A stretch of DNA of 64,000 nt from a virus, in IMG/VR virus record IMGVR_UViG_3300046005_000547, positions 62,001 through 126,000 of that record. One strand, 5' to 3'. The position numbers and the translations under genes are program-made. The notes below the pieces were generated by a model, which made no database searches, had not been told where the DNA came from, and saw nothing but the letters and a program-made list of their open reading frames with translations. Positions 3,233 through 63,900 of the stretch are shown in pieces (position 1 is the stretch's first letter; each line of letters opens with the position of its first letter).

Positions 3233-3247
3233 TTATGGAGTAAGAGA

Positions 3248-3610
3248 ATGAACACATTTGAACAATTCAAACAGACGGTGATGGAAGAATTTGCTGGTCG
3301 ATTGAATGAAGAAAAACAAACAAAATTGGTAGTCAAAAAGATTAGTCCTAAATGGTATAGAATCGTTATTGACACAGATAAATGGGATATACCAGAAACC
3401 GTTGTTGATATCCTACAGACTGAACATAAAGAATGGTCTGTATGCTATGGTGAGAAAATGTCATATTCAGTTGGTGAACAATCGCATGATACTCGTAGAT
3501 GGGTATTTGTTAAGTTAAACAATGCCAAAGTTTATGCGTTAGATCTAGCTGCTGCCATTAAAAATGATAAACCTTATCCTTCTATCTTAGACGACAAATA
3601 CGAACTTTAA
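3248..3610 (+). CDS. Protein with shared capsid-targeting-like N-terminus, 120 aa
   Basis: The first 21 residues (MNTFEQFKQTVMEEF, then AGRLNE) are nearly identical to those of the gene at 5471 and similar to the genes at 10144 and 60156, while the remainders are unrelated. T4 internal head proteins share an N-terminal capsid-targeting sequence that the gp21 protease removes after L/I-x-E; here LNE stands at the junction. That makes this a candidate internal head protein packaged and processed in the prohead. The rest (about 100 residues) matches nothing I know. A near-consensus late box precedes it and a terminator follows it. Confidence 0.75.
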   Translation: MNTFEQFKQTVMEEFAGRLNEEKQTKLVVKKISPKWYRIVIDTDKWDIPETVVDILQTEHKEWSVCYGEKMSYSVGEQSHDTRRWVFVKLNNAKVYALDLAAAIKNDKPYPSILDDKYEL

Positions 3611-5457: not shown

Positions 5458-5470
5458 AAGGAAAACTAAA

Positions 5471-5752
5471 ATGAGTGCATTCGAACAATTTAAACAAACG
5501 GTGATGGAAGAATTTGCTGGTCGTATAGACGAAAGTAAAATCATGTTTGCTGTGACTGTTGATGGTGATAAGGTTGACGTGAAATCTAAAGATAAAGATT
5601 TCAAAGTTGACGTAAAGGATGTTGAAAATGAAAAAGAAGTTATCGATACGGTCGTTAAATTCTTAGAAAAACAAGGTTATAAAAATGTGAATGGACATCC
5701 AAATACATCTGAAAAAGGTGGAGTCGTTGGTGTCATCCACGTAGAGAAATAA
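5471..5752 (+). CDS. Protein with shared capsid-targeting-like N-terminus, 93 aa
   Basis: The first 18 residues (MSAFEQFKQTVMEEFAGR) match those of the gene at 3248 almost exactly, also at DNA level, and end in IDE, the I-x-E pattern cut by T4-type prohead protease. The rest is a small charged domain rich in Lys and Asp (VDVKSKDKDFKVDVKDVE), unrelated to the gene at 3248. A strong ribosome site (AAAGGA) precedes the ATG and a terminator follows. Likely an internal head protein by analogy with T4; that is inference. Confidence 0.75.
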   Translation: MSAFEQFKQTVMEEFAGRIDESKIMFAVTVDGDKVDVKSKDKDFKVDVKDVENEKEVIDTVVKFLEKQGYKNVNGHPNTSEKGGVVGVIHVEK

Positions 5753-10098: not shown

Positions 10099-10143
10099 AA
10101 AATCATTTCGTCTTAATTGACGCACAACAAAAGGAAACAAAAC

Positions 10144-10471
10144 ATGAGTACATTTAAAGAATTCCAAGCATTGGTTATGGAAGAATTCTCATCAGTTAAT
10201 GAAGCATTAGAAAACGGTAAATGGAAAGCAGGTAAATGGGTCGAAGATTTATCTATGATAGATAATTCTAAACGTAAAAAAAATTGAAGTTGAAAAAGAA
10301 AAATACACCATCCATATCAAATTGGATAATGGCGAAATCACAAAACAAAAGGTTACAATTCCGTTCGGGACTTCTGTTGCAGATAAAGCGAATTCTATTT
10401 TCCAAACAATTAAACACAATGCCGAAACATGGGGTGCCCCTGCTCCAGTAGAAATTTTAAAAATTGTTTAA
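10144..10471 (+). pseudogene. Frameshifted gene with capsid-targeting-like N-terminus
   Basis: Frame 1 starts MSTFKEFQALVMEEFSSVNE, the shared N-terminal peptide, and stops at a TGA after an A8 run (10276-10283). The +1 frame continues without a gap (IEVEKEKYTIHIKLDNG to PVEILKIV) to 10471. Removing one A from the run gives a single protein of about 108 residues. The likely processing site is VNE near residue 20. It could be a real loss-of-function slip, a homopolymer sequencing error, or transcriptional slippage on the A-run. The late box at 10009 precedes it and a terminator follows. Confidence 0.7.
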
Positions 10472-10603: not shown

Positions 10604-10822
10604 TCAATCAACTCTACAGGACTATTTGAATCCATCTTAAAACAACAAATAATTGGACAGGATTTAATGTTAACATCGAATCAATAAATTCACTGTATCG
10701 AGAACATCTTAAAGATTCATTATCGCTATTCTAGACATCGAGTTTGTAAATATCAACATAATAATACTTCTTGACTTTTCCAGCAAATTCCATTATAGTA
10801 GACTATGTCGACGTTTCAGTTA
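10604..10822 (+). repeat. Promoter cassette copy A (upstream of HNH gene)
   Basis: Member of a seven-copy family. It starts with TCAATCAACTCTACAGG, has ATCGA boxes at about offsets 72, 94 and 134, and reaches the -10 box at offset 190, then the leader GACTATGTCGACGTTTCAG. The region 10531-10603 before it holds the family's upstream stretch CATCCATTATTTGTCC. No gene lies between 10472 and 10941. The transcript would run into the HNH gene. Confidence 0.8.
10771..10799 (+). promoter_or_regulatory. Cassette A promoter TTGACT-N17-TATAGT
   Basis: Near-perfect sigma70-type promoter: TTGACT at 10771-10776, 17 bp, TATAGT at 10794-10799. Copy C of the cassette has the same TTGACT type; the other five have TTTCGA. 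Confidence 0.8.
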
Positions 10823-10941
10823 GTGTATATTACTACTTGATTATTCTTTTATATTACTACAAGATTCTTTTCGATTTATCTTTCTTTTTATAATTTTTAA
10901 CATATAATTTTAATCTTTAAACAAACAATGAGGGATTTACA

Positions 10942-11583
10942 ATGACATTATCGGCAGGAACACTTAGAGCAAGACTTGAATACAAACCAGAAGCTGGAGT
11001 ATTTGTTGGTAGATTAGATAGAGCCCGTAAGGGTACATTTGACAAGAAAGGATATATGGTAATCAATATTGATGGTAAGAAATATCTAGGTCATCGATTG
11101 GCATATCTTTACATGAATGGTAAATTTCCTGAACATGAAGTGAGTTTCAAAGATAAGAATACATCAAATTGTAAATGGGATAATCTAATTGAAGTTAATC
11201 CAACACAAAGAGCTTTATTATCTAAATCTGATACAAGTTCAAAATCTGGAGTAAAGGGATTGAATTTAGATAAACGAGGGTTCTACGTGGCAAGAGTGAC
11301 TCTTGATAAGAAACCCATTCAGAAATCATTCAAGTTGGACCAAAAAGATGAAGCTGTTAAATGGTTGGAATCAATCAGAGAATCTATTGGCGTCAATAAA
11401 GTGAAATCTAAAACCAACACTGGCGGGTATTATTATGACGTCAATCATAAATGGTTGAAAGATAAAGACAAACCAGTTATATTAAAGTTGACTCCAGTGG
11501 TTAAACAAGAACAACCGAAAGTTATAACAAAATTTGAATACGGACTTTCATTGTTATCTAATCTAGTGGAACAGTATTCGTAA
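10942..11583 (+). CDS. HNH/AP2-type homing-endonuclease-like protein, catalytic site degenerate
   Basis: 213 residues. GHRLAYLYMNGKFPE and the following NCKWDNLIEV are the HNH_3 pattern, and SGVKGLNLDKRGFYVARV is an AP2-like DNA-binding module. In active HNH_3 proteins the first part ends with a DH/NG pair; here it reads VSFKDKNTSN, so the expected catalytic His is missing. It may therefore be an inactive homing endonuclease or a DNA-binding protein only. GAGGG before the ATG is a good ribosome site. The gene lies between two cassette copies (A and B), as a mobile insertion might. Confidence 0.75.
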   Translation: MTLSAGTLRARLEYKPEAGVFVGRLDRARKGTFDKKGYMVINIDGKKYLGHRLAYLYMNGKFPEHEVSFKDKNTSNCKWDNLIEVNPTQRALLSKSDTSSKSGVKGLNLDKRGFYVARVTLDKKPIQKSFKLDQKDEAVKWLESIRESIGVNKVKSKTNTGGYYYDVNHKWLKDKDKPVILKLTPVVKQEQPKVITKFEYGLSLLSNLVEQYS

Positions 11584-11590
11584 TCTAAAG

Positions 11591-11627
11591 AATCCCAGAC
11601 GTCTTAATTGACTCTGGGATTTTTATT
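11591..11627 (+). terminator. Intrinsic terminator
   Basis: AATCCCAGA pairs with TCTGGGATT, followed by TTTATT, directly after the HNH-type gene. Confidence 0.85.
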
Positions 11628-11720: not shown

Positions 11721-11942
11721 TCAATCAACTCTACAGGATACATTGAATCCATCTTAAATCAACAATATGGGCGTTTTAAATTGAACATAATCGTCGAAAC
11801 TGTAAATTCAACATATCGAAAGAGACATCGAGTATTCTTAAGATGAAATAATGTATCGAGTCTGTAAATTACAATCATCGAGAAACTCCTTTCGAAATCG
11901 ATAAAAAGACAGTATACTAGACTATGTCGACGGTTTGAGTTA
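11721..11942 (+). repeat. Promoter cassette copy B
   Basis: Begins with the family 20-mer TCAATCAACTCTACAGGATA, contains TCGA boxes at about offsets 73, 95, 135 and 157, and reaches the -10 box at offset 192, then GACTATGTCGACGG. It fills the gap 11584-12001 between the HNH gene and the convergent terminase gene. No terminator is visible before 12001, so its transcript would run antisense into the 3' end of gene 17. Confidence 0.8.
11890..11918 (+). promoter_or_regulatory. Cassette B promoter TTTCGA-N17-TATACT
   Basis: TTTCGA at 11890-11895, 17 bp, TATACT at 11913-11918. The promoter body is the same as in copy G (AATCGATAAAAAGACAG spacer). Confidence 0.7.
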
Positions 11943-12001
11943 GTTCTATAGATTCAATTAAGTTTTCTTTTATATTACTTCAAGACTCTTTACATAATAT
12001 A

Positions 12002-13981
12002 TTAGAAATGATATACTTCCACTTTATCTTCATCCAAACCGTCATTAATATATCCTACAGGTAACATTTGTTGGTCGATATAATCCATCTGTTGATTATA
12101 CAATTCCTTTCTAATGTCGACATCTCCCATATCCTTGATAAACGACGTTGAACATAACCAAGCAAATATAACACAACACATCACTAGATCGTCATGATTA
12201 GGTGGATCCGCAGAGTAACTACCTTGTCTTTCGATAAACACAGAAAACTCCTGTATAATATCAGGATCGAATATCAACAACTTAGATTCCTCAATCAACG
12301 ACTTCAATGTCATACATCCAATTCGTTTAATCTTCTTATCCATATTCAATCCCACTTCCATTGTTCCTGAAAATGATTCACATGGTATCTGTCCCTTTGG
12401 TGTCTTCTTAATGGAAATCAAATTCTCGTATTCCAAATCATCCTGAAGTATCTGTGCCACCTCCTTCGAACAATTTATCTCCACCAAAATGAATGCCTCG
12501 TTATACTCCATACCTATTTTATACAGGATATTTGGATATAACATAGGGCTAATCTTATTATCTCTATACTTACCTACAATCTTATACGGGAAATTCGTCA
12601 CATCGAAAATAACGGCTGATGAATAATCCCCACCAACACCCTTCGATGTATCCGCCGATATAATATACTGATGCCCTTCAATAGGTGCTTCCTGTATATC
12701 TAATCCATCTCTTGAATAAATGTATGGAATCGGTGACATCGATGAAATAGATGATGAATTTATAAGTGTGGCAGATGAACCTAAGAATTCACATAACACC
12801 TCTTGATTGAATTTAATCTCACCTAATATCTTTAACTGTTCATCTGCCCAAGTTGGATCTCGTTCTGGATGTTCGCTCCAATGTACAGTGAATGGTACAA
12901 ATCCGTTAGTTCCTTGTTGAGCATCATTCCAATATTTCCAAAAATGATTGTATCCTAACGGAGTTGACGTCAATACAACTTTTGTTTCTTTACCAGAGGA
13001 AATAGTAGGATACACAGAAGCGAAGAATGCGTCGGCGACGGCATTAGGAATAATTGCCGCTTCGTCCACGTATAAGAAATTACAATTATGTGAAATTACT
13101 CCATTAGAATAATAACAATGGACATCTTCAACAGTGTCTATATCGTAAACAGTTTCTGGTGTAATCTCAACAATAGATGAAATGATTTTATCCGATAGAA
13201 TATCATTTACATTTAAATCTTCGCATCTAATCCATTCTCCATTTATTTTAAATCTATGATCCAGTGTTGAATTGATATGAATGTCATCTGTAAATTTTAA
13301 TTGTAATAATCGTTCCGGCGTTCCTTGATTCAAAACTCCTTTAAAAGATTTGAAACCATAAGGAGTTTTGATTTTGAACGATTCTTTATATGAATTGTAT
13401 AATTCCTCTATAGAAATATCAAAAACATAATCCCCGTCCAAAATGGTAACAATGGTTTCTCCTGTTACACAAGACTTACCCCTGATTCCAGATGCAGAAG
13501 TTGCGGCAGTGAATATCTTAGAACCATTTTCTAAATGCATATCACCTTTGTTCAAGGATAGTACACCGTGTTGTAACCATTTCGGTAAAGATTCATACAT
13601 TAATTGTATACGACTTAGTACCTCTCTAGCAGCCGCGGCTTTATTTGCTAAAATGGCGGTAGTCTTATGGTTATTGAATAATGTGTAATGTAATATGTAT
13701 GCTGAAGTTACCGTAGTTTTTCCGAGCTGGCGCCCAATTAATGCTAAAACCTTGCGTTCACTGTGGAGTAAGCGAACATAATCCTTTTGAAACGGATACA
13801 TTTCAAAATTCACTAATCCCCTATCCAATGAAACAACTTTACAGTATGTAACAATAAAATAACAAGGATCTTGTTTGCATTTAATGTATTCTTCTATTTG
13901 TTCTTGAGTGAAATCAACTTTATATCCAGTTGGTTTTAAATTTTCATTACCATTATAACCAAGTAATTTATTATCTGCCAT
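12002..13981 (-). CDS. 17: Large terminase subunit (gp17) with intein
   Basis: ATP-driven packaging motor and nuclease. Seen: Walker A region LIGRQLGKTTVTS, the Walker B region FLYVDEAAIIPN, the coupling motif TSTPLGYNHFW, and the nuclease part with YIISADTSKG (first metal Asp) and NHDDLVMC. A 129-residue intein (171-299) splits the chain just before Walker B, leaving about 530 extein residues (T4 gp17 is 610). The ribosome site AAGGA precedes the ATG. It is the last gene of the minus-strand late block, next to a homing endonuclease gene that starts just upstream. Confidence 0.95.
   Translation of the reverse strand: MADNKLLGYNGNENLKPTGYKVDFTQEQIEEYIKCKQDPCYFIVTYCKVVSLDRGLVNFEMYPFQKDYVRLLHSERKVLALIGRQLGKTTVTSAYILHYTLFNNHKTTAILANKAAAAREVLSRIQLMYESLPKWLQHGVLSLNKGDMHLENGSKIFTAATSASGIRGKSCVTGETIVTILDGDYVFDISIEELYNSYKESFKIKTPYGFKSFKGVLNQGTPERLLQLKFTDDIHINSTLDHRFKINGEWIRCEDLNVNDILSDKIISSIVEITPETVYDIDTVEDVHCYYSNGVISHNCNFLYVDEAAIIPNAVADAFFASVYPTISSGKETKVVLTSTPLGYNHFWKYWNDAQQGTNGFVPFTVHWSEHPERDPTWADEQLKILGEIKFNQEVLCEFLGSSATLINSSSISSMSPIPYIYSRDGLDIQEAPIEGHQYIISADTSKGVGGDYSSAVIFDVTNFPYKIVGKYRDNKISPMLYPNILYKIGMEYNEAFILVEINCSKEVAQILQDDLEYENLISIKKTPKGQIPCESFSGTMEVGLNMDKKIKRIGCMTLKSLIEESKLLIFDPDIIQEFSVFIERQGSYSADPPNHDDLVMCCVIFAWLCSTSFIKDMGDVDIRKELYNQQMDYIDQQMLPVGYINDGLDEDKVEVYHF
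13085..13471 (-). other. Mini-intein in terminase (129 aa)
   Basis: Begins after GIRGKS with Cys171 (CVTGETIVTILDG), contains NSTLDHRFKINGEWI (block-B-like) and VYDIDTVEDVHCYY, and ends SHN followed by Cys+1 of CNFLYVDEAA. No endonuclease domain. The site is the start of the Walker B segment. Confidence 0.9.
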
Positions 13982-22910: not shown

Positions 22911-24361
22911 TATTTTGAATCCTTACTTAGAACCAATCCTCTCCAAGTTGTACCACCATCACTAGTGAAAAATCCTAGAATATCTACTCCAGAAGTAATC
23001 AACGACGGAACAGTTCCTCCAGCCCATTTAATACCCGACCACCAAGTTATAATTGAACTCCCACCATTTGTTAATTCAATAACGAATGAACTCGTGTATC
23101 CAGATGTTGCTACATTACTAACAGTAAATGTAGTTGCACCAGAAATAGTTTTAGTGAAGAACGAACCTAAAGATAAATCGATATTGGCAGCAGCAACTGT
23201 GGTTTTAACGTCTCTGATACCAGAAAATGTATTGATACCAGAAAATGTATTATTTGATGTGAATAGATTAAACCAACTGTTATCCCCTTTCAAGAACGTA
23301 CTTGCACTTGGAGTTCCGGTAGAACCCATTCTGGATGGATTGATTGTTCCAGACAATAATGTAGCGGCAATGTTACCAGATGTTACAGTTCCTAATGTCG
23401 TTATACTAGCAGATCCAGCAGATGGAGCATAAGATGTCGATGACGTGTAAGCGGCTGTTCCTAATGCACCGCCAGAACCGATGTTTAATGTAGATCCATC
23501 TGTTCCAATTAAACCTAACGTGTTAGATACAGTTAATGTTTTTGATGTAGTGCCACCAGCAACTGAGAATCCAGTTGTAAAAGATGAAAATGAAACACCA
23601 TTAATAGTTTTACCAGTTAATGCTGAAGCAATGTTACTAGAAGCAATTGTTCCTGAAATTAAATTTCCTGGAATGTTACCAGTAGATACAGTTCCTAATG
23701 TCGTTATACTAGCAGATCCAGCAGATGGAGCATAAGATGTCGATGACGTGTAAGCGGCTGTTCCTAATGTACCACCAGAACCGATGTTTAATGTAGATCC
23801 ATCTGTTCCCATTAAACCTAACGTGTTAGATACAGTTAATGCTTTTGATGTATTTCCTCCGGAAACAGAGAATCCGGTTGTAAAAGATGAAAATGAAACA
23901 CCATTGATAGTTTTACCAGTTAATGCTGAAGCAATGTTACTAGAAGCAATTGTTCCTGAAATTAAATTTCCTGGAATGTTACCAGTAGATACAGTTCCTA
24001 ATGTAATTATACTAGCAGATCCTGTTGCTGGGGCATAAGATGTCGATGACGTGTAAGCGGCAGTCCCTAATGTACCACCAGAACCGATGTTTAATGTAGA
24101 TCCATCTGTTCCCATTAAACCTAGCGTGTTAGCTACAGTTAATGCTTTTGATGTATTTCCTCCGGAAACAGAGAATCCGGTTGTAAAAGATGAAAATGAA
24201 ACACCATTGATAGTTTTACCAGTTAATGCTGATGTGATATTATCAGAAGCAACTGTCCCTAATGTAATGTTTGATGCATTTAAAGAAGTTATACCAGAAC
24301 CATTACCAAGCAAAATCGAATTCGGAACTCCAATTTTATTTGTATTGCGTAAATAAGACAT
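22910..24361 (-). CDS. Repeat-rich tail fibre protein, 483 aa
   Basis: Three near-identical 101-residue repeats (303 bp) occupy about residues 40-330, each with TLGLMGTDGSTLNIGSGG, TSSTSYAP and TGKTINGVSFSSFTTGFSV. The C-terminus (IDLSLGSFFTKTISGATTFT, then WWSGIKWAGG) is the beta-rich end found in many phage fibre or collar proteins. The N-terminus SYLRNTNKIGVPNSILLGNG looks like a baseplate- or fibre-attachment segment. Good ribosome site (AAGGA). Confidence 0.75.
   Translation of the reverse strand: MSYLRNTNKIGVPNSILLGNGSGITSLNASNITLGTVASDNITSALTGKTINGVSFSSFTTGFSVSGGNTSKALTVANTLGLMGTDGSTLNIGSGGTLGTAAYTSSTSYAPATGSASIITLGTVSTGNIPGNLISGTIASSNIASALTGKTINGVSFSSFTTGFSVSGGNTSKALTVSNTLGLMGTDGSTLNIGSGGTLGTAAYTSSTSYAPSAGSASITTLGTVSTGNIPGNLISGTIASSNIASALTGKTINGVSFSSFTTGFSVAGGTTSKTLTVSNTLGLIGTDGSTLNIGSGGALGTAAYTSSTSYAPSAGSASITTLGTVTSGNIAATLLSGTINPSRMGSTGTPSASTFLKGDNSWFNLFTSNNTFSGINTFSGIRDVKTTVAAANIDLSLGSFFTKTISGATTFTVSNVATSGYTSSFVIELTNGGSSIITWWSGIKWAGGTVPSLITSGVDILGFFTSDGGTTWRGLVLSKDSK
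23390..24240 (-). repeat. 303-bp tandem repeats inside fibre gene
   Basis: Segments such as GTCGATGACGTGTAAGCGGC recur at 303-bp steps (for example around 23430, 23740 and 24040). The three copies differ by few substitutions, which suggests recent expansion. Confidence 0.85.
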
Positions 24362-41928: not shown

Positions 41929-42147
41929 TCAATCAACTCTACAGGATATTCTGAATCCATCTTATATTGGCGAATATCCATGTAGGATTAAATGTTAACA
42001 TCGAATCAACTATAATCATGTATCGAGGATGTCTTAATATAATCCTTTCGATGTATATTGTATCGAGTTTGATTATTGCAAGTTAAAGATTTCTCTTGAC
42101 TTTTCGAGGAAATATCGTTATAGTAGACTATGTCGACGTTTCAGTTA
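41929..42147 (+). repeat. Promoter cassette copy C
   Basis: First of five tandem cassettes between the divergent gp25 and ligase genes. TCAATCAACTCTACAGGATA starts at 41929; ATCGA boxes lie at offsets 72, 94 and 134, with a TTCGA near 119; the -10 box is at offset 190; the leader GACTATGTCGACGTTTCAG follows. Confidence 0.85.
42096..42124 (+). promoter_or_regulatory. Cassette C promoter TTGACT-N17-TATAGT
   Basis: TTGACT at 42096-42101 and TATAGT at 42119-42124, 17 bp apart, as in copy A. Confidence 0.8.
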
Positions 42148-42304
42148 TTGCCTTTAAGGTCATTTTTATATTCTTTAATGTCTTCTATATTACTTCAAGA
42201 CTCTTTATCGACAATAATATACTCTATTCTAAACAATAATTCATCATTAAAATCTCTGCGTCTCAGATCCCGATAGAATGTAAAAGTTCTGTTGGGATTT
42301 TTAT
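42130..42304 (+). ncRNA. Predicted short transcript C (about 175 nt)
   Basis: Runs from the cassette C promoter to the terminator at 42267. Shared parts with the other copies are the leader, TATATTACTTCAAGACTC and AAATCTCTG before the terminator. A leaderless 48-codon frame exists only in this copy, so the transcript is probably non-coding. Confidence 0.45.
42267..42304 (+). terminator. Intrinsic terminator (cassette C)
   Basis: ATCCCGATAGAA pairs with TTCTGTTGGGAT (with G-U pairs), followed by TTTTATT. Confidence 0.85.
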
Positions 42305-42400
42305 TGGATAAAAATTTACATTATATTCAATTCCATCTTAACATCAAACCATCCATTATTTGTCCAATAATCCACCTTAATGGAATCTTTCCAATATACA

Positions 42401-42620
42401 TCAATCAACTCTACAGGATATAACCATTCCATCTTAAAATCCAAATATGGATTTCTATATTAAACAAGAACATCGAAGTTGTAAATTCAACATATCGAAA
42501 GAGTCTTAAAGATGGTGTTCGATAACATTAGACATCGAACTTGTAATAATCATGTATCGAGAAACTCCTTTCGAAATGATAAAAAAGACAGTATACTAGA
42601 CTATGTCGATGTTTCAGTTA
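42401..42620 (+). repeat. Promoter cassette copy D
   Basis: The 20-mer at 42401, ATCGA boxes at offsets 72, 94, 134 and 156 with TTCGA at 118 and 170, -10 box at offset 191 and the leader with one change (GTCGATG). It starts 472 bp after copy C. Confidence 0.85.
42569..42597 (+). promoter_or_regulatory. Cassette D promoter TTTCGA-N17-TATACT
   Basis: TTTCGA at 42569-42574, 17 bp, TATACT at 42592-42597. Confidence 0.7.
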
Positions 42621-42781
42621 TTGCCTTTACTTCAATTTTAATATTCTTCTATATCATTATTAGATTCTTTATAGACATTACTACAAGAACATAATATTGT
42701 CTTTATCGAGTAATTATTCATCATAAAATCTCTGCTCCTCAGATCCTGACATGAACTAAACATTATGTCAGGATTTTTATT
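42603..42781 (+). ncRNA. Predicted short transcript D (about 178 nt)
   Basis: From the cassette D promoter to the terminator at 42743. The only ATG-initiated frame at the start stops after 12 codons. Confidence 0.45.
42743..42781 (+). terminator. Intrinsic terminator (cassette D)
   Basis: ATCCTGACAT pairs with ATGTCAGGAT, followed by TTTTATT. Confidence 0.85.
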
Positions 42782-42874
42782 GGATAAAATTTACATAATC
42801 GGTTTGTTGAACTGATACTGGAACAACCATTATTTGTCCAATAATCCATCCTAGTGGAATCTTCTTGTAATATG

Positions 42875-43093
42875 TCAATCAACTCTACGAGATATATTGA
42901 TTCCATCTTAAAACAACAATATGGATGTCTATATTAAACAAGAACATCGAAGTTGTAAATTCAACATATCGAAAGACTATTGATAACATCGAAACGGAAT
43001 CTTAGACATCGAGTATGTAAACAACAACGATTAGAAACTCCTTTCGAAATGTCAGAAACTCGGATATACTAGACTATGTCGACGTTTCAGTTA
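42875..43093 (+). repeat. Promoter cassette copy E
   Basis: The 20-mer (ending ACGAGATA) at 42875, ATCGA boxes at offsets 72, 94, 114 and 134, -10 box at offset 190. It starts 474 bp after copy D. Confidence 0.85.
43042..43070 (+). promoter_or_regulatory. Cassette E promoter TTTCGA-N17-TATACT
   Basis: TTTCGA at 43042-43047, 17 bp, TATACT at 43065-43070. Confidence 0.7.
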
Positions 43094-43247
43094 GTGTATC
43101 TATTGTTTTTCTAATATTCTTTATTGTCTTCTATATTACTACAAGACATTATCCTATTCTTTATCGAGTATATTCTATACAATAATCCAACATTAAAATC
43201 TCTGACATTCAGATCCCACCAGATTTATTCTGAGTGGGATTTTTATT
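43076..43247 (+). ncRNA. Predicted short transcript E (about 172 nt)
   Basis: From the cassette E promoter to the terminator at 43213; the frame at the leader ATG stops after 12 codons. Confidence 0.45.
43213..43247 (+). terminator. Intrinsic terminator (cassette E)
   Basis: ATCCCACCAGA pairs imperfectly with TCTGAGTGGGAT, followed by TTTTATT. Confidence 0.8.
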
Positions 43248-43340
43248 GTTTAAAATTTACAATATAACAATCCTATGTTGAATCATTAACATCCATTATT
43301 TGTCCGTTAATCCATCCTAGTGGAATCTTTGTATAATATG

Positions 43341-43561
43341 TCAATCAACTCTCTGCATGATATTCTGAATCCATCTTAAAACAACAAATATCCACGTTAA
43401 ATCAAACGTAATCATCGAAACAATAAACATCATGTATCGAAAGAGTCTTAAGAACATCGAAACAGAATATCGTTCATCGAGTCTGTATATTACAGGTTAA
43501 GAATACTCCTTTCGAAATGGTAGAAAATGTAGTATAGTAGACTATGTCGACGTTTCAGTTA
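43341..43561 (+). repeat. Promoter cassette copy F
   Basis: TCAATCAACTCT at 43341 (the second half of the 20-mer is altered), ATCGA boxes at offsets 74, 96, 116 and 136, -10 box at offset 192. It starts 466 bp after copy E. Confidence 0.8.
43510..43538 (+). promoter_or_regulatory. Cassette F promoter TTTCGA-N17-TATAGT
   Basis: TTTCGA at 43510-43515, 17 bp, TATAGT at 43533-43538. Confidence 0.7.
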
Positions 43562-43709
43562 TTACCTTTACTTTCATTAAGTGTTCTTCTATATTACTAC
43601 AAGACTCTTTATAGAGTATAATAATGTCTTTATCGAGCAATTATTCAACATTAAAATCTCTGTCATTCATATCCCGATGAGAACCAATCATTTCATCGGG
43701 ATTTTTATT
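43544..43709 (+). ncRNA. Predicted short transcript F (about 166 nt)
   Basis: From the cassette F promoter to the terminator at 43671. The leader ATG frame ends after 28 codons and differs from the frames of the other copies. Confidence 0.45.
43671..43709 (+). terminator. Intrinsic terminator (cassette F)
   Basis: ATCCCGATGA pairs with TCATCGGGAT, followed by TTTTATT. Confidence 0.85.
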
Positions 43710-43803
43710 GGATTCAATTTACAATATATCAGTTCTGTATTAGTTTGATAACATCCATTATTTTGCTCGTTAATGGACTCTAATGGAACGTTTCCAATAT
43801 ACA

Positions 43804-44025
43804 TCAATCAACTCTACAGGATATAACCAATCCATCTTAAATCAACAATATAGACTGTTAAATTAAACATTAACATCGGAATCAATTATAATCATGTATC
43901 GAAAGAGTCTTAAGAACATCGAAGGATAATCTTTAACATCGAATGTGTAAATTACAATCATCTAGAAACTCCTTTCGAAATCGATAAAAAGACAGTATAC
44001 TAGACTATGTCGACGGTTTGAGTTA
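43804..44025 (+). repeat. Promoter cassette copy G (upstream of ligase)
   Basis: The 20-mer at 43804, boxes at offsets 72 (ATCGG), 95, 115 and 135, -10 box at offset 192, leader GACTATGTCGACGG as in copy B. No terminator follows, so its transcript would run into the ligase gene. Confidence 0.85.
43973..44001 (+). promoter_or_regulatory. Cassette G promoter TTTCGA-N17-TATACT
   Basis: TTTCGA at 43973-43978, 17 bp, TATACT at 43996-44001; the spacer is the same as in copy B. Confidence 0.7.
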
Positions 44026-44099
44026 GTTCTATTAATATGTTTTAGTATTTTTCTATATTACTTCAAGACTCTTTATAGACTTTATTCTTTTATTATTCC

Positions 44100-44127
44100 T
44101 TTCGATTAACATTTTATTCACTATAAT
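44100..44127 (+). promoter_or_regulatory. Ligase promoter TTTCGA-N16-TATAAT
   Basis: TTTCGA at 44100-44105, 16 bp, TATAAT at 44122-44127, 38 bases before the ligase ATG. Together with cassette G the ligase gene has two tandem promoters. Confidence 0.75.
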
Positions 44128-44164
44128 AGAACTCGTTACTTAACTTTATACAGGAAACTTTAAT

Positions 44165-45541
44165 ATGTCAGTCACTAGAATCATCAATGAATTACGTTCA
44201 ACCAATTCAAGAAATGACAAAATCGCCATCTTAACAGAAAACAAAGATAATGAAACGTTAAAACGAGTATTGGTTCTTGCGTTAGATCCAACAATTCAAT
44301 TCTATCAACGTAAGATTCCATCATTCACATTTTCTGGTAATCTTATTGAATTCAACAACGCATTAGATCTTCTGTCAACATTATCCAGTAGAGAATTAAC
44401 GGGAAATGCTGCTGTTGAATTCTTATCAACATTATTATCTGATGTTTCAAACGATGAAGCTGAAATCATCAAATTGATTATCCAGAAAGACTTGAAATGT
44501 GGAGTCAATGAATCAACTGTTAATAAAGTTTGGGGTAACTTAATTCCTGATTACCCTTATCAAAGATGTTCGTCTATCTCTAGTGTCAAATTAGATAAAT
44601 GGAATTTACAGGATGGAATCTTCTCTCAATTGAAAGCAGATGCTCTATACTGTAACCTTAATCATGATGAATTTGGCGATGTTAAGATGTTATCTCGAAA
44701 TGGTAAAGAATTCCCATTAGACAAATTCCAGGACATTGTATACCAAACCAAATTACATTTACAGACCAACACTCAGACACAAGGTGAGTTGATGGTTAAA
44801 CGAGATGGGATTATCTTACCGCGCGAACAATCTAATGGATCTATCAATAGTGTTTCAAAAGGTGGAGATTTTGGTGTTGGTGAAGAACCTTATTTTGTTG
44901 TATGGGATCAAGTTCCATTAGATGAAGTTGGATCTAAATGTTCAATCAAAATTCCATACAAAGATAGATTCGTTACATTAACAAGTCAAGTATCTAATGT
45001 AAATGGTTGTATCGAATTGATTGAAACAAGAATTGTACATTCTATCGATGAGATGATTGAACATTTTGAACATAATCTGAAATTGGGATTAGAAGGTTCT
45101 GTTGTCAAAAATCCAAATGGATTCTGGGAAGATAAGACAAGCAAAGACCAAGTGAAATTGAAATTGGAAGTTGATTCAATTGAACTTGAAGTCATTGGAT
45201 TCAAAGAAGGTAAAGGTAAGAACGCAAATACATTTGGTTCAATTATCTGTCAATCATCTTGCGGTCAATTGAAAGTTGCTATCTCGGGAATGCCTGACAA
45301 CAAACGAATGGAAATCCATAAGAAACGTGATGAAATGATTGGTTCCATTATTTCTGTCAAAGCAAATGCAATCACAGAACCAAATAAAGGTAATCCATTG
45401 TATTCTTTATTCTTGCCTAGATTCGAAGAAGAACGATATGATAAGAACACTGCTGATAGTCTTGATGAAATTCAATTGAAATTTGAAAGTGCTATCTCAG
45501 ACATTAAAGATAAATTGTTGAAACAATATAAAGGTAAATGA
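44165..45541 (+). CDS. 30: ATP-dependent DNA ligase (gp30)
   Basis: 458 residues (T4 gp30 is 487). The N-terminal helical domain has LIIQKDLKCGVNESTVNKVW; the nucleotidyltransferase part has the active-site Lys in SQLKADALYC, the GELMVKRDG segment, LEGSVVKNPNGFWEDKTSKD (motif IV) and QVKLKLE (motif V). The ligase seals nicks in replication and recombination. The motif I consensus is KxDG with a following Arg; here it reads KADALY, so both the Gly and the Arg are changed, which is odd for an otherwise well-preserved enzyme. Ribosome site CAGGA. Confidence 0.92.
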   Translation: MSVTRIINELRSTNSRNDKIAILTENKDNETLKRVLVLALDPTIQFYQRKIPSFTFSGNLIEFNNALDLLSTLSSRELTGNAAVEFLSTLLSDVSNDEAEIIKLIIQKDLKCGVNESTVNKVWGNLIPDYPYQRCSSISSVKLDKWNLQDGIFSQLKADALYCNLNHDEFGDVKMLSRNGKEFPLDKFQDIVYQTKLHLQTNTQTQGELMVKRDGIILPREQSNGSINSVSKGGDFGVGEEPYFVVWDQVPLDEVGSKCSIKIPYKDRFVTLTSQVSNVNGCIELIETRIVHSIDEMIEHFEHNLKLGLEGSVVKNPNGFWEDKTSKDQVKLKLEVDSIELEVIGFKEGKGKNANTFGSIICQSSCGQLKVAISGMPDNKRMEIHKKRDEMIGSIISVKANAITEPNKGNPLYSLFLPRFEEERYDKNTADSLDEIQLKFESAISDIKDKLLKQYKGK

Positions 45542-58866: not shown

Positions 58867-59017
58867 TAAAATTTCATACGCAATTTATAATCCTCATAAT
58901 TTGTTAATTACGGACGATTTAAGATGTTTTAATTAAATGTTAATGTAACTGTACAACATTATATTGAATCCGTCTTAAAACAACAAATTTCCATGTTTAA
59001 ATTGATTTTAAAATATC

Positions 59018-59045
59018 TTTCGAAACATCGAATACTCGTTATAAT
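59018..59045 (+). promoter_or_regulatory. Promoter TTTCGA-N16-TATAAT in a degenerate cassette
   Basis: TTTCGA at 59018-59023, ATCGA just inside the spacer, TATAAT at 59040-59045. Upstream the DNA (GAATCCGTCTTAAAACAACA near 58967) is a partial copy of the cassette family. No gene is seen between 58819 and 59079. Confidence 0.75.
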
Positions 59046-59079
59046 AGATCTCAATACAAATTTATTATGAGGAATTAAA

Positions 59080-59358
59080 ATGGCAACTTACCTAACATCC
59101 AAACGTCAATTTGACAAATTGAATGAATTTGAACGTAAAGATGTTCAACAAATTTTAGACAACTTCTTACATAAATCTCATACATTCGTTTCCATTGAAT
59201 TGAGAAAACCTCCAAAAGGTATTCAGATGTCGGTTGTTTATGGATCGTTGGGTATTTGCGAATTTAATATGAAAGAATATATAAGAATGAATAGTAAAAT
59301 CGTTAAACAATCGGTTGCCGTTGAAACCGTTAAATCTTGGTTAAATGAAAAAGGATAA
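59080..59358 (+). CDS. Hypothetical protein, 92 aa
   Basis: Small mixed protein (TSKRQFDKLNEFERKDVQQI, LRKPPKGIQMSVVYGSLG). Strong ribosome site (GAGGA). It shares a promoter and probably a transcript with the ADP-ribosylglycohydrolase gene four bases downstream. No family recognised. Confidence 0.7.
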   Translation: MATYLTSKRQFDKLNEFERKDVQQILDNFLHKSHTFVSIELRKPPKGIQMSVVYGSLGICEFNMKEYIRMNSKIVKQSVAVETVKSWLNEKG

Positions 59359-59361
59359 ATT

Positions 59362-60159
59362 ATGATTGGTGCTGTAATTGGAGACGTAATAGGATCCGTC
59401 TATGAGTTCGATAATGTAAAGACAAAAGAGTTTGAATTATTTCAAAAGGATTCAATATACACAGATGATTCTGTATTAACATTTGCTATAGCAAAATCTA
59501 TCTTGGATGAAGAATCTTATATTGATAATGTAAAGGATTTCGGTAGAAGATATTCGGACGCCGGATATGGTGGTATGTTTAAACAATGGTTGTTCTCCGA
59601 AGACGTTGAACCATATAACAGTTACGGTAATGGTTCGGCAATGCGAGTGTCATCAGTTGGATTCTTATTTGATACCATAGAAGATGTTTTATATCAAGCT
59701 GAATTATCCGCTGCGATTACCCATAATCACCAAGAAGGAATCAAAGGTGCTCAAGCAACTGCTCTTTCGATCTTCTTGGCAAGAACGGGTAATTCTAAGG
59801 AACAAATCAAACATGAAATTGAAACTCGATTTGGATATGATTTAAACAGAACATTGGATGAAATCAGACCAACATATAAATTCAATGAAACATGTCAGAA
59901 GACTGTCCCTGAATCAATCATATCTTTCCTTGAATCGACAGATTTCGAAGATGCCATTAGAAACGCAATTAGTCTAGGTGGAGACAGCGATACATTAGCT
60001 TGTATCTGCGGTGGTATAGCGGAAGCATTTTATGGGGAGATTCCTGATTATATCTTATCGGAAACATTGATTAGATTACCGCAAGAATTTATTGATATTT
60101 TAAATTTATTTGATGATAAAGTGTATAAATACAATAAATCAAATAAGGAATCGCAATGA
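59362..60159 (+). CDS. ADP-ribosylglycohydrolase (ARH/DraG family), 265 aa
   Basis: The family signature is clear: GAVIGDVIGSVYEF at the start, YTDDSVLTFA (metal Asp residues), NGSAMRVSSVGFLFD, ITHNHQEGIKGAQATALSIF and the metal site LGGDSDTLACICGGIAEAFYG. These enzymes remove ADP-ribose from modified proteins or other acceptors. In a phage it might reverse host ADP-ribosylation defences or tune NAD-linked chemistry; this is inference. The end overlaps the next start (ATGA) and contains the late box TATAAATA for that gene. Confidence 0.92.
   Translation: MIGAVIGDVIGSVYEFDNVKTKEFELFQKDSIYTDDSVLTFAIAKSILDEESYIDNVKDFGRRYSDAGYGGMFKQWLFSEDVEPYNSYGNGSAMRVSSVGFLFDTIEDVLYQAELSAAITHNHQEGIKGAQATALSIFLARTGNSKEQIKHEIETRFGYDLNRTLDEIRPTYKFNETCQKTVPESIISFLESTDFEDAIRNAISLGGDSDTLACICGGIAEAFYGEIPDYILSETLIRLPQEFIDILNLFDDKVYKYNKSNKESQ
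60124..60131 (+). promoter_or_regulatory. T4-type late promoter box TATAAATA
   Basis: Perfect TATAAATA within the 3' end of the glycohydrolase gene, 25 bases before the ATG at 60156, whose product has the shared N-terminal peptide. Confidence 0.65.
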
Positions 60160-60388
60160 AAACATTTAAAGAATTCCATGAATTGGTCATGGAATCACTC
60201 AACCGATTGATGTAGATAAATTGGAAGAAGCTGTTAAGATGACTGACAAATATCTACAATCAACTGTTAAACGATTGATGATTAATCTAACCAAGTTGGA
60301 CCCAACCAATCAAGTTGATTCTGCATCTTATTACAAATTAGCAAAAATGTTAAATGATAACTTAACTGAATTGTTAAGTCGCAAATAA
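60156..60388 (+). pseudogene. Frameshifted gene with capsid-targeting-like N-terminus
   Basis: Starts MKTFKEFHELVMES, the shared N-terminal peptide. Frame 1 stops at a TAG after 19 codons; the -1 frame is open over TQPIDVDKLEEAVKMTDKYL to LNDNLTELLSRK (stop 60386-60388). The join lies between about 60194 and 60206. The product would be about 77 residues. Ribosome site AAGGA and the late box at 60124 suggest it was or is a late head protein. Mutation, assembly indel or a programmed shift are all possible. Confidence 0.65.
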
Positions 60389-60923: not shown

Positions 60924-63900
60924 CTATCCATTAAAATTAAATCTGTTTTGAAAATAATTCAATACAGTGTTATCATCGTTCTTAACTGTCTTGGAGATAA
61001 CAGTCGTTGAATTATTGTTAACATTGGTTGGCGCGTTGACTATATTATTACCATTTGATACATTATTTTTATTGGTATTCTCTAATCTAGCGGTTTCCGT
61101 TTTCGCTGAATTTTCATATAATGCGTTAGAAATATCTCTTATCGGTTTTTCTGGCGTTTTGAAAAGAGCTTGCCCAATAGGTTCAATCTTAGTGACATCT
61201 ATTGGTAACTTTGTTTCAATAGACATATTAGATAATGTATCTGTTATGCTTGAATTAACAATTGGTATTATCTTAGAGGGTTCAATACGTTCTCCGTTAA
61301 TTGTAACATCTGGTATTATATTATTAAGGAGTTCTTCTGCTTTATTATCAATAGAAGAAGGAATATCCATTATCGGATTAATAATATCATCAATTGGTTT
61401 TGTAACAGATTGAATGTTTTGATTGACGATATTCTTCACTTCATTTATCGGATTACCAATCAACGGGTCTATTTGATTTGCTAATTGAACTACTTCATCT
61501 ATTGGATTATCATTTATTGTTACAACAGGTTCAGGAATAGATACTTCATTTGGTGGTAATGGAGTTTCCACCGTAACAGGAACTTGTTGAATCACACCCA
61601 CCGGTTTAACAATAGGTTCTTCTGATTTCAAATTTGGAAATTCAGATTCAACAGAAGGTATTGTTGATTCATTTATTGTTACAACAGGTTCAGGAATAGA
61701 TACTTCATTTGGTGGTAATGGAGTTTCTTTAGATTGTTCCTGTTTAATTTGTTCTACTGGTTTAGATTGAACATCATTTAACGGAGCTTTGCTAAGAGAT
61801 GTTAAATCGATTTCTGGTTTAGAGAATTCAGGAACAGGTTCTATCTTGTTTTCTATTTTAACAGGTTCAATCTTTGGTATTTCTTTATTTTCAGGTTCTA
61901 CTGGTTTTGGTTCTTCCGATTTACCGTTAATGAATTTCGTTGCTTCTTCTTCGACATTCTTTTTGATTTCGGTCATTCGTTCACCAACCAATGGATCTGA
62001 CATTGGTGAAATACCATACACATCTTCATAAACATCATTTGCCAATAATGCGATTGCCGCAGGTACAGCAGTGGCAACTGAACCTAAACCAGATACGGCA
62101 GCCAATCCTGCTCCAGCGATATCTCCTTTTACCAATCTACTGATACCTTCCCCAACACCTAATGCAGCACCAATCAATGGAATAGATTTACCCAACATCC
62201 CGCCCATGGCAGCAGGTAATCTTTTGGCAATAGAGGTTCCAATCAATGCAGAAGCACTTCCTTTCAATTTATTTCCAACACCGCCCAATACTTTACCGCC
62301 AACAGATTTAACTACTCCACCCATCTTACCAACAACTGTTGATTCCTTTACTCCATTAACAACATTAGACGCTAAATTTCCAATAGAAGAACCAGCAACC
62401 ATGGCAGCAGTAGCTCCACCAATCGCCTTTACTCCAGTTGATAATGGTTTGAATTTACCTCCGATTTTGGAGGCAATATCTTTTGTTGATTTTCCAAAGG
62501 ATTTAGCTTTGTTCTTTAATTTACCACCTTCTTTCTTAGCGTTACCACCAAACAACCCACCCAATAATGATGTATCGGATTCTTCTTTCTCATTGACCCC
62601 AAATTTACCCATTTTCAACAATTTGAAAATTTCTGTTTGAACATTCAATTGATTTTGTAATACATCAAATGTTTTGGATTTCTGTAAATTATCTTCAATT
62701 TGAGATTCGGAAACTTCATTCGATATATTAGTTGATTCTTTAGAGGTTTCTTTAATTGAATCAGATAACGATTTGATTTCATCTTGTGTATTGGAAACGA
62801 CAGTTGTTATCTTAGAGGACTCTTTAATTGAATCAGATAACGATTTGATTTCATCTTGTGTATTGGAAACGACAGTTGTTATCTTAGAGGTTTCTTTAAT
62901 TGAATCAGATAATGATTTATTTTCATCTTGAACTTTAGATTCAACAGTTGTTATCTTAGAGGACTCTTTAATTGAATCAGATAATGATTTGATTTCATCT
63001 TGAACTTTAGATTCAACAGTTTCCTTTTTAATTGGAGATTCAACTGGAGTCGATTGAGATGGAATATCTTTAACTGGCTCTTCTTTGACAAATGTTTTAT
63101 CCGTATCCTCTATCTGTTTTCTTAGAGAGGAAAGTTCTTCAGATAATGTTTTAAACACTTCATTGGATTCATCCGTTTTTGGTAAATCTTTAAATGTATT
63201 AAGTTTATCAAACAATTCATTGTATGATTGTTTCATATTCAATAACATTTTGGATTCTTTAATTAGATCTTTCTCAACATCAGAACGTTTTTTATCTTTC
63301 AATAATTCTGGATTTTGTTCTATTGCTTGTTGTGCATATTCTAAATGAGTTTCTTTTACATTTTGTGATTGTAATAATACATCTTTCAAACCAACAATGT
63401 CCGCAAGTTTCTGTATATTTTCATTGGACCCAAACGACAATCCTTTTGTACCAATTTGTTTTATCACAGAAGAGGTTTTGAATTCATTATATCTTGGATC
63501 TTCTTTTACATTATACTTTGGGTTGATTCGTTTAGCTTCTTTAATGTAATCTTTGAACGATTCTCTATTGGATAGATATTTTCCTAATTTTGAATCTTCT
63601 TTTACACCAATAACATTTGTTGCGAATTTCTTTAATGAAGAAAGATTACCAATTGCTGATTTTTTAAACAATGATGAGATTACATTATCCGATTTATCAA
63701 CATCATATTTACCAGAAGGTTTATTTGTTGGTTGTTCTTTTGGTTTTGATTCTGGTGCGTTATCTTTCAAAACGGGTTTCGATTCAATTCTATCTTTAAT
63801 CTCAGATAACAAATCTATCATCTTCATGGAATTGTTGAATTGTTTCTCTTCCGCGAACCTTTCTTCAAATTGAATTTCTTTATCGGATTTACCGCCTGAA

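Follow-up and report, generated by a model that had tools for sequence, protein, structure and literature searches.

The window, that is, the whole stretch of 64,000 nucleotides analysed, corresponds to bases 62,001–126,000 of a 234,735-bp virus record, which is the genome of a T4-like phage. Profile searches of this genome matched a T4-type large terminase, baseplate wedge proteins, topoisomerase II, an SbcCD-like (gp46/47) nuclease, DNA ligase, a single-strand binding protein and a late sigma factor. A sliding clamp, a clamp loader, UvsY, a RegA-like translation repressor and a gp33-like late regulator are also encoded, and the T4-type genes related to recombination include UvsY, gp46/47 and RNase H, among others. 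The terminase shares less than 60% identity with that of every named relative. The record has a terminal direct repeat of 127 bp, in line with what a closed and circularly permuted assembly should show. A search of the window for known RNA families and tRNAs returned none. Within coding sequence, an in-frame tandem repeat of ~300 nt is present three times at 23343–24248 in a 483-aa ORF adjoining a tail fibre gene, and 72-nt in-frame tandem repeats occur at 62658–63089 in the gene of a tape-measure-like protein. Similar N-termini (e.g., MNTFEQFKQTVMEEFAGR and MKTFKEFHELVMES) are found on four ORFs (3247–3300, 5470–5523, 10143–10196 and 60155–60208; repeat family D14), and we take them to resemble the leader peptides that target T4 internal head proteins to the capsid.

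Five repeat units of ~450 bp, with a period of 463–474 bp, make up cluster 3 and stand in tandem on the plus strand upstream of an ATP-dependent DNA ligase gene (44165–45541, +; phrog_114, E 3e-123), the first gene 3´ of the array. Unit 1 (41929–42303) has the -10 hexamer TATAGT adjoining TAGACT at 42124 and a terminator hairpin at 42266–42298. In units 2 (42401–42780), 3 (42875–43247) and 4 (43341–43708), TAGACT lies at 42597, 43070 and 43538, and the terminator at 42742–42774, 43213–43242 and 43671–43702, respectively. These intrinsic terminators, which close units 1–4, are absent from the list of the first-pass annotation. Unit 5 (43804–44164; TAGACT at 44001) has no terminator and reads into the ligase gene via a simple promoter, CTTTCGAT...TATAATAGA (44100–44127, +), located immediately 5´ of that gene.

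Two further plus-strand units form cluster 2, so that all seven copies which had been claimed for the window are present at their positions. Unit A (10604–10941; G0:72799) contains TCAATCAACTCT at 10604, ATCGA boxes, a TTGACT -35 element and a TATAGT -10 hexamer at 10795–10800; its leader runs into a gene for a 213-aa HNH endonuclease (10942–11583, +; phrog_99, E 9e-32), which lies between the promoter of unit A and its intrinsic terminator (GAATCCCAGAcgtcttaattgaCTCTGGGATTTTTATT, 11592–11620, +; repeat family D10). Unit B (11721–12001) contains boxes, a TTTCGA -35 element and a TATACT -10 hexamer at 11914–11919, and is directed towards the convergent terminase gene (12002–13981, minus strand), whose 3´ end it faces. 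At 58960–59060 (+; repeat families D16 and D20), a simple promoter (TTTCGA...TATAATAGA) is joined to a fragment of the upstream element (ATTGAATCCGTCTTAAAACAACAAATTTCCATG); the segment at 58960–59358 places this fusion in front of a conserved 92-aa ORF that has no family match.

A typical unit starts at its 5´ side with a TCCATTATTTGTCC...TGGAAT stretch, followed by TCAATCAACTCT and TCCATCTTAAAACAACAA, then by three to five 10-bp boxes that follow the pattern ACATCGAAAG, and then by a promoter with a -35 element TTTCGA or TTGACT 17 bp upstream of TATA[C/G]T or a variant. The promoter is followed by a pyrimidine-rich leader and an intrinsic terminator 120–180 nt from the likely start. A strict terminator pattern is matched in 16 of 24 units, and the stems differ in sequence while each of them pairs. 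The final unit of every cluster lacks the terminator and reads into an operon in six of the seven clusters, the exception being unit B of cluster 2. The terminated units upstream of it in the arrays have no obvious product.

The count of seven copies holds for the window; the genome contains 24 full units in seven clusters, in addition to solo copies of the upstream half. The 24 occurrences of the core TAGACTATGTCGA[C/T]G are grouped near 42, 73, 105, 141, 163, 196 and 229 kb, 20–47 kb apart. A relative of 249 kb, which has 252 ORFs in common with this genome at a median protein identity of 70%, also contains at least 24 units in seven clusters, with mostly TAGACTATGTCGATC as the core. Solo upstream halves occur in both genomes when searched with a profile built from all units. 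In the relative, the layout of unit B and the terminase gene is the same, and the HNH ortholog (55% identity) lies beside a unit. A 64-aa protein (L051:11882-12076) is 97% identical between the two genomes, compared with the median of 70%, and has no family match.

A near-identical 149-kb contig and short contigs of another data set contain the same arrays with agreeing internal spacings, and the arrays are therefore not the product of one assembler. Misassembly of the window's genome was considered and rejected, given the 127-bp terminal repeat; since the longest exact repeat within a cluster is only 92 bp, exact repeats are unlikely to have confused the assembly. Beyond this lineage, the array gave zero nucleotide matches against 50,697 phage records. 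Strict pattern scans of viral contigs matched only records of this lineage, the same scan of genome contigs had no match, and isolated 15-mer matches in unrelated contigs are probably due to chance. Terminase relatives at ~53% identity are without the motifs, the element is absent from these distant relatives, and the independent genomes known to carry it number two.

The boxes had been described as ATCGA-type motifs at offsets near 72, 94, 114, 134 and 156. These offsets agree with TCGA boxes at -123, -101/-102, -81, -61 and sometimes -40 from TAGACTATG, not all of which are present in each copy. The forward boxes at -61, -81, -101 and -123 from the core follow a step of ~20.5 bp and thus occupy one face of the helix, as proposed, but the reverse boxes (CTTTCGATGT, -76/-96) lie half a turn off this lattice. 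The 24 upstream regions of the genome contain 107 ATCGA/TCGAT motifs versus ~9 in shuffled sequences, with a density of 19.4 per kb compared with 2.9 per kb genome-wide. GATC, by comparison with shuffling, is nearly missing from the upstream parts of the units of both genomes (3 in 48 units versus ~32), and this depletion is stronger there than in the remainder of these genomes. Control through GANTC by CcrM-GcrA was considered and rejected: GANTC occurs 56 times in the units of one genome versus 15.6 in shuffled sequences, but just 37 times versus 15.6 in those of the other.

A fixed distance of 190–192 bp from the conserved 20-mer to the -10 box had also been reported. In all seven copies of the window, TCAATCAACTCT and the -10 hexamer are indeed separated by a nearly constant 191–193 bp, whereas this distance is not fixed genome-wide: the 45 units of the two genomes fall into classes near 163, 173, 184, 194, 206 and 216 bp, which are separated by steps of one helical turn. 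Among the units outside the main class, 16 of 17 are displaced by a multiple of the 10.5-bp turn to within 1.5 bp, a fit reached by none of 100,000 uniform simulations, although paralogous units are not fully independent of one another. Phase might arise as a by-product of slippage between boxes 21 bp apart in a decaying repeat, without selection by a protein, and the losses of ~21 bp in six units equal one box period. Nine units, however, carry shifts by an odd number of turns (183–185, 204–206 and 163) at different places, which slippage of 21 bp cannot yield, and the reverse boxes keep a consistent half-turn offset; we consider such an origin of the phase highly improbable. The one-turn shifts cannot have arisen when a single 21-bp box repeat was lost. 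The simplest reading is selection for helical phase, which would imply protein contacts across the region. At the level of sequence, the retention of phase rather than of exact distance in two genomes is good evidence for a protein that would occupy a defined face of the DNA near the promoter.

The boxes are shared with another class of promoter. About 20 simple promoters per genome follow the consensus TTCTTTCGATG-N14-TATAATAGATTTCAAGTT (also given as TCTTTCGATG-N14-TATAATAGA), and their -35 element, CTTTCGATG, is the array box reversed. A weight matrix built from simple promoters away from the units finds the array sites, with 16.5 matches per kb in the units versus 3.3 elsewhere. The earlier proposal that the phased boxes bind a protein that controls the promoter gains from the conserved phase and fits with the match between the box and the -35 element found at other promoters of the phage; on these grounds such binding is plausible, and the factor recognising the box could be a phage activator. 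The T4 middle promoters, which combine a MotA box with a sigma70 -10 element, are alike in that a box specific to the phage takes the place of the -35 element and stands almost equally far upstream of TATAAT, the T4 MotA box lying 12 ± 1 bp from the -10 (PMC2988021). They differ in the sequence of the box, which here is TTCTTTCGATG 14 bp before TATAAT rather than wwwTGCTTtA 12 ± 1 bp before the -10, and in that the promoters here have extra phased boxes upstream and no recognisable MotA or AsiA. The profiles of MotA and AsiA (phrog_1345 and phrog_1166) match nothing in either genome and find both proteins in T4 as a control, which suggests that the factor is too diverged or of another kind. 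A search for another regulator among 30 conserved small proteins and ORFs gave no convincing candidate.

The units are composed of differing combinations of alternative words, each roughly 6–10 bp long. Linkage among polymorphic columns decays to the baseline within about 20–40 bp, a decay that was equally strong in none of 1000 column permutations, and ~70–90% of the column pairs more than 20 bp apart violate the four-gamete condition. By these sequence statistics, the mosaic is a signature of repeated exchange among copies. The exchange is slow on the population scale, as two genomes that are 99.9% identical differ little in their clusters; a fast diversification of the clusters was considered and rejected on the basis of this pair, in which only a few bases have changed there. 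The same two genomes, G000 and G001, contain diverged segments (~75–96% identity; G000 230301–233400 and 317–1352) in otherwise 99.9% identical sequence, which start at the edge of cluster 7 and span a 933-aa ORF. This difference represents an exchange of a probable host-range region adjoining the cluster.

The clusters also coincide with the joints of large rearrangements, which the first-pass annotation, as with the mosaic, does not mention. By ortholog order, the window's genome and its relative split into the same large blocks; those named a b c d e f g in the former are arranged as a -b c -e -f -d g in the relative. The differing adjacencies number 15; in nine of them a few genes have been shuffled locally, and the other six join different blocks. 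All six inter-block breakpoints lie in gaps that hold a unit cluster or a half unit, one of them (143.1–145.0 kb) with a half unit ~1.3 kb from cluster 4. Since units or half units occupy just 12 of the 211 anchor gaps, the chance of this coincidence is ~1e-8 if all gaps are equally likely to break. The orientations of the clusters (-,+,+,-,-,-,-) match both inversions, in which b turned over between clusters 1 and 2 and d-e-f turned over between clusters 3 and 6, and are consistent with a swap of e with f through directly repeated clusters. These orientations are those predicted by homologous recombination, which is the presumed cause. By ortholog context, the downstream neighbour is unchanged at all seven clusters and the upstream neighbour is new at six of them. 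The block order of the relative, taken from one assembly, is less secure, because that assembly is without a terminal repeat and its longest cluster repeat is 95 bp.

The units could instead be mobile or recombination elements, like PeSL morons, kept mainly for cargo gain and block shuffling, with promoter and terminator merely insulating the cargo. The HNH gene inside unit A and beside a unit in the relative, the block breakpoints at units and the solo half units would fit. Recombination, on the other hand, needs no conservation of helical phase over ~195 bp, the downstream operons remain constant at the seven clusters despite six changed upstream neighbours, and the clusters of two near-identical genomes differ by few bases. 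A purely recombinational role leaves the phase conservation and the constant downstream targets unexplained; overall, this explanation appears quite improbable.

Another possibility is that the clusters are T4-type replication origins, at which an activator-dependent promoter yields a short RNA that primes replication through an R-loop at seven places, the boxes serving as iterons and the promoter being no more than a means to replication. T4 uses at least five origins, and several of these lie at strand switches; MotA-dependent promoters prime oriF and oriG, and oriE has evenly spaced 12-nt repeats (PMC3016281). Seven spread clusters, short terminated transcripts (as predicted) and a unit aimed into a convergent gene fit as well. 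However, the GC and AT skews at third codon positions, corrected for gene strand, have no positive shift at the clusters, and each of the two genomes has a GC3 coefficient just below zero, skew being a weak test for a replicator driven by recombination. The suggestion of the first-pass annotation that the boxes are replication iterons thus obtained no positive origin signal from the codon-position-3 GC skew in either genome, and we regard such origins as unlikely.

We favour as fairly probable that the units are phased, activator-controlled promoter cassettes that double as recombination joints. Each unit would be a compound phage promoter, in which an upstream element and three to five ACATCGAAAG activator boxes two helical turns apart precede a sigma70-type promoter whose -35 is the reversed box (CTTTCGA) or a host-like TTGACT. 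Downstream of the promoter would come a short leader and, except in the last unit of a cluster, an intrinsic terminator. A phage factor, or a host factor modified by the phage, would recognise the box and activate transcription at early or middle times, and would also serve the ~20 simple promoters of each genome, as MotA serves the T4 middle promoters. Where several protomers line one face of the DNA, they would touch each other and RNA polymerase, so that indels survive only when the helical phase is kept. Each of seven genome blocks has cassettes at its upstream end. Many similar cassettes together with T4-type recombination genes would lead to homologous recombination among the cassettes, which would shuffle short segments into the mosaic and invert and swap whole blocks. 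In either genome unit B faces a convergent gene at its 3´ end, which is odd for a gene promoter and speaks against this reading, as do the negative searches for MotA, AsiA and another regulator and the terminated units with no obvious product. A bolder version, which we hold to be rather unlikely, is that the chromosome consists of seven invertible, exchangeable blocks, each with an upstream phased array for a new activator that is at once a promoter, a replication start and a legal crossover site, and that continual exchange of turn-long segments keeps the copies functional and non-identical.

On this bolder version, the array would constitute a regulatory joint that allows a phage chromosome to be rearranged without breaking the control of any block. 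T4-like phages are generally assumed to have a conserved gene order. In the present case, all of the large rearrangements coincide with a repeated promoter cassette, which itself varies in keeping with the turns of the DNA helix; this would offer an explanation of how large phages reshuffle big chromosome blocks yet retain the control region of each block. The units further provide natural data from which to learn what changes a given promoter architecture will tolerate, and a candidate new activator-box system.

A phased array shared with the simple promoters of a phage, with spacing in helical quanta and a mosaic on the scale of a turn, was not found described in the literature. The comparison with PeSL cassettes made by the first-pass annotation is apt with regard to the promoter, the stem-loop and the shuffling. 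PeSL cassettes of T4-type phages (Arbiol et al. 2010) are reportedly intergenic, combine a promoter with a stem-loop and are tied to modular shuffling. The units are likewise repeated intergenic cassettes with promoter-like -35/-10 elements and, in most copies, intrinsic terminators, and modular shuffling is seen in the six of six block breakpoints and the HNH cargo of unit A. Unlike the reported PeSL cassettes, the units carry ~190 bp of phased upstream boxes, form tandem clusters and are joints of blocks of roughly 17–45 kb rather than sites of single-gene cargo.

The Campylobacter group II phages CP21 and CP220 (Firehammervirus) also have T4-like AT-rich genomes cut by repeat regions (RR1–RR4) into four large modules, which are inverted between relatives (PMC4546147). 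Their repeats are tandem units of 72–86 bp with a 13-bp core, AAACTTAAAGCAA, and are unrelated in sequence and architecture to the ~450-bp units; the core was absent from the units by inspection, and PMC4546147 reports no promoters or phased boxes in those regions. In CP21 (HE815464.1; L198:5515-6856 and other repeat regions), AAACTTAAAGCAA reads on the opposite strand as TTGCTTTAAGTTT, which contains the T4 MotA-box sequence TTGCTTTA, and in some units TTGCTTTA lies 9–11 bp before a -10-like TATAAT or TATGCT. The CP21 repeat regions may thus be promoter arrays too; a search of CP21 for the MotA family had no match.

The statement that no such phased array is known in T4-like phages needs a caveat in T4 oriE, whose 12-nt iterons are evenly spaced (PMC3016281). 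Both arrangements place evenly spaced short repeats in a T4-type phage, those of oriE beside an early promoter. T4 oriE is one locus of 12-nt repeats, whereas seven clusters of 10-bp boxes in two orientations are present here.
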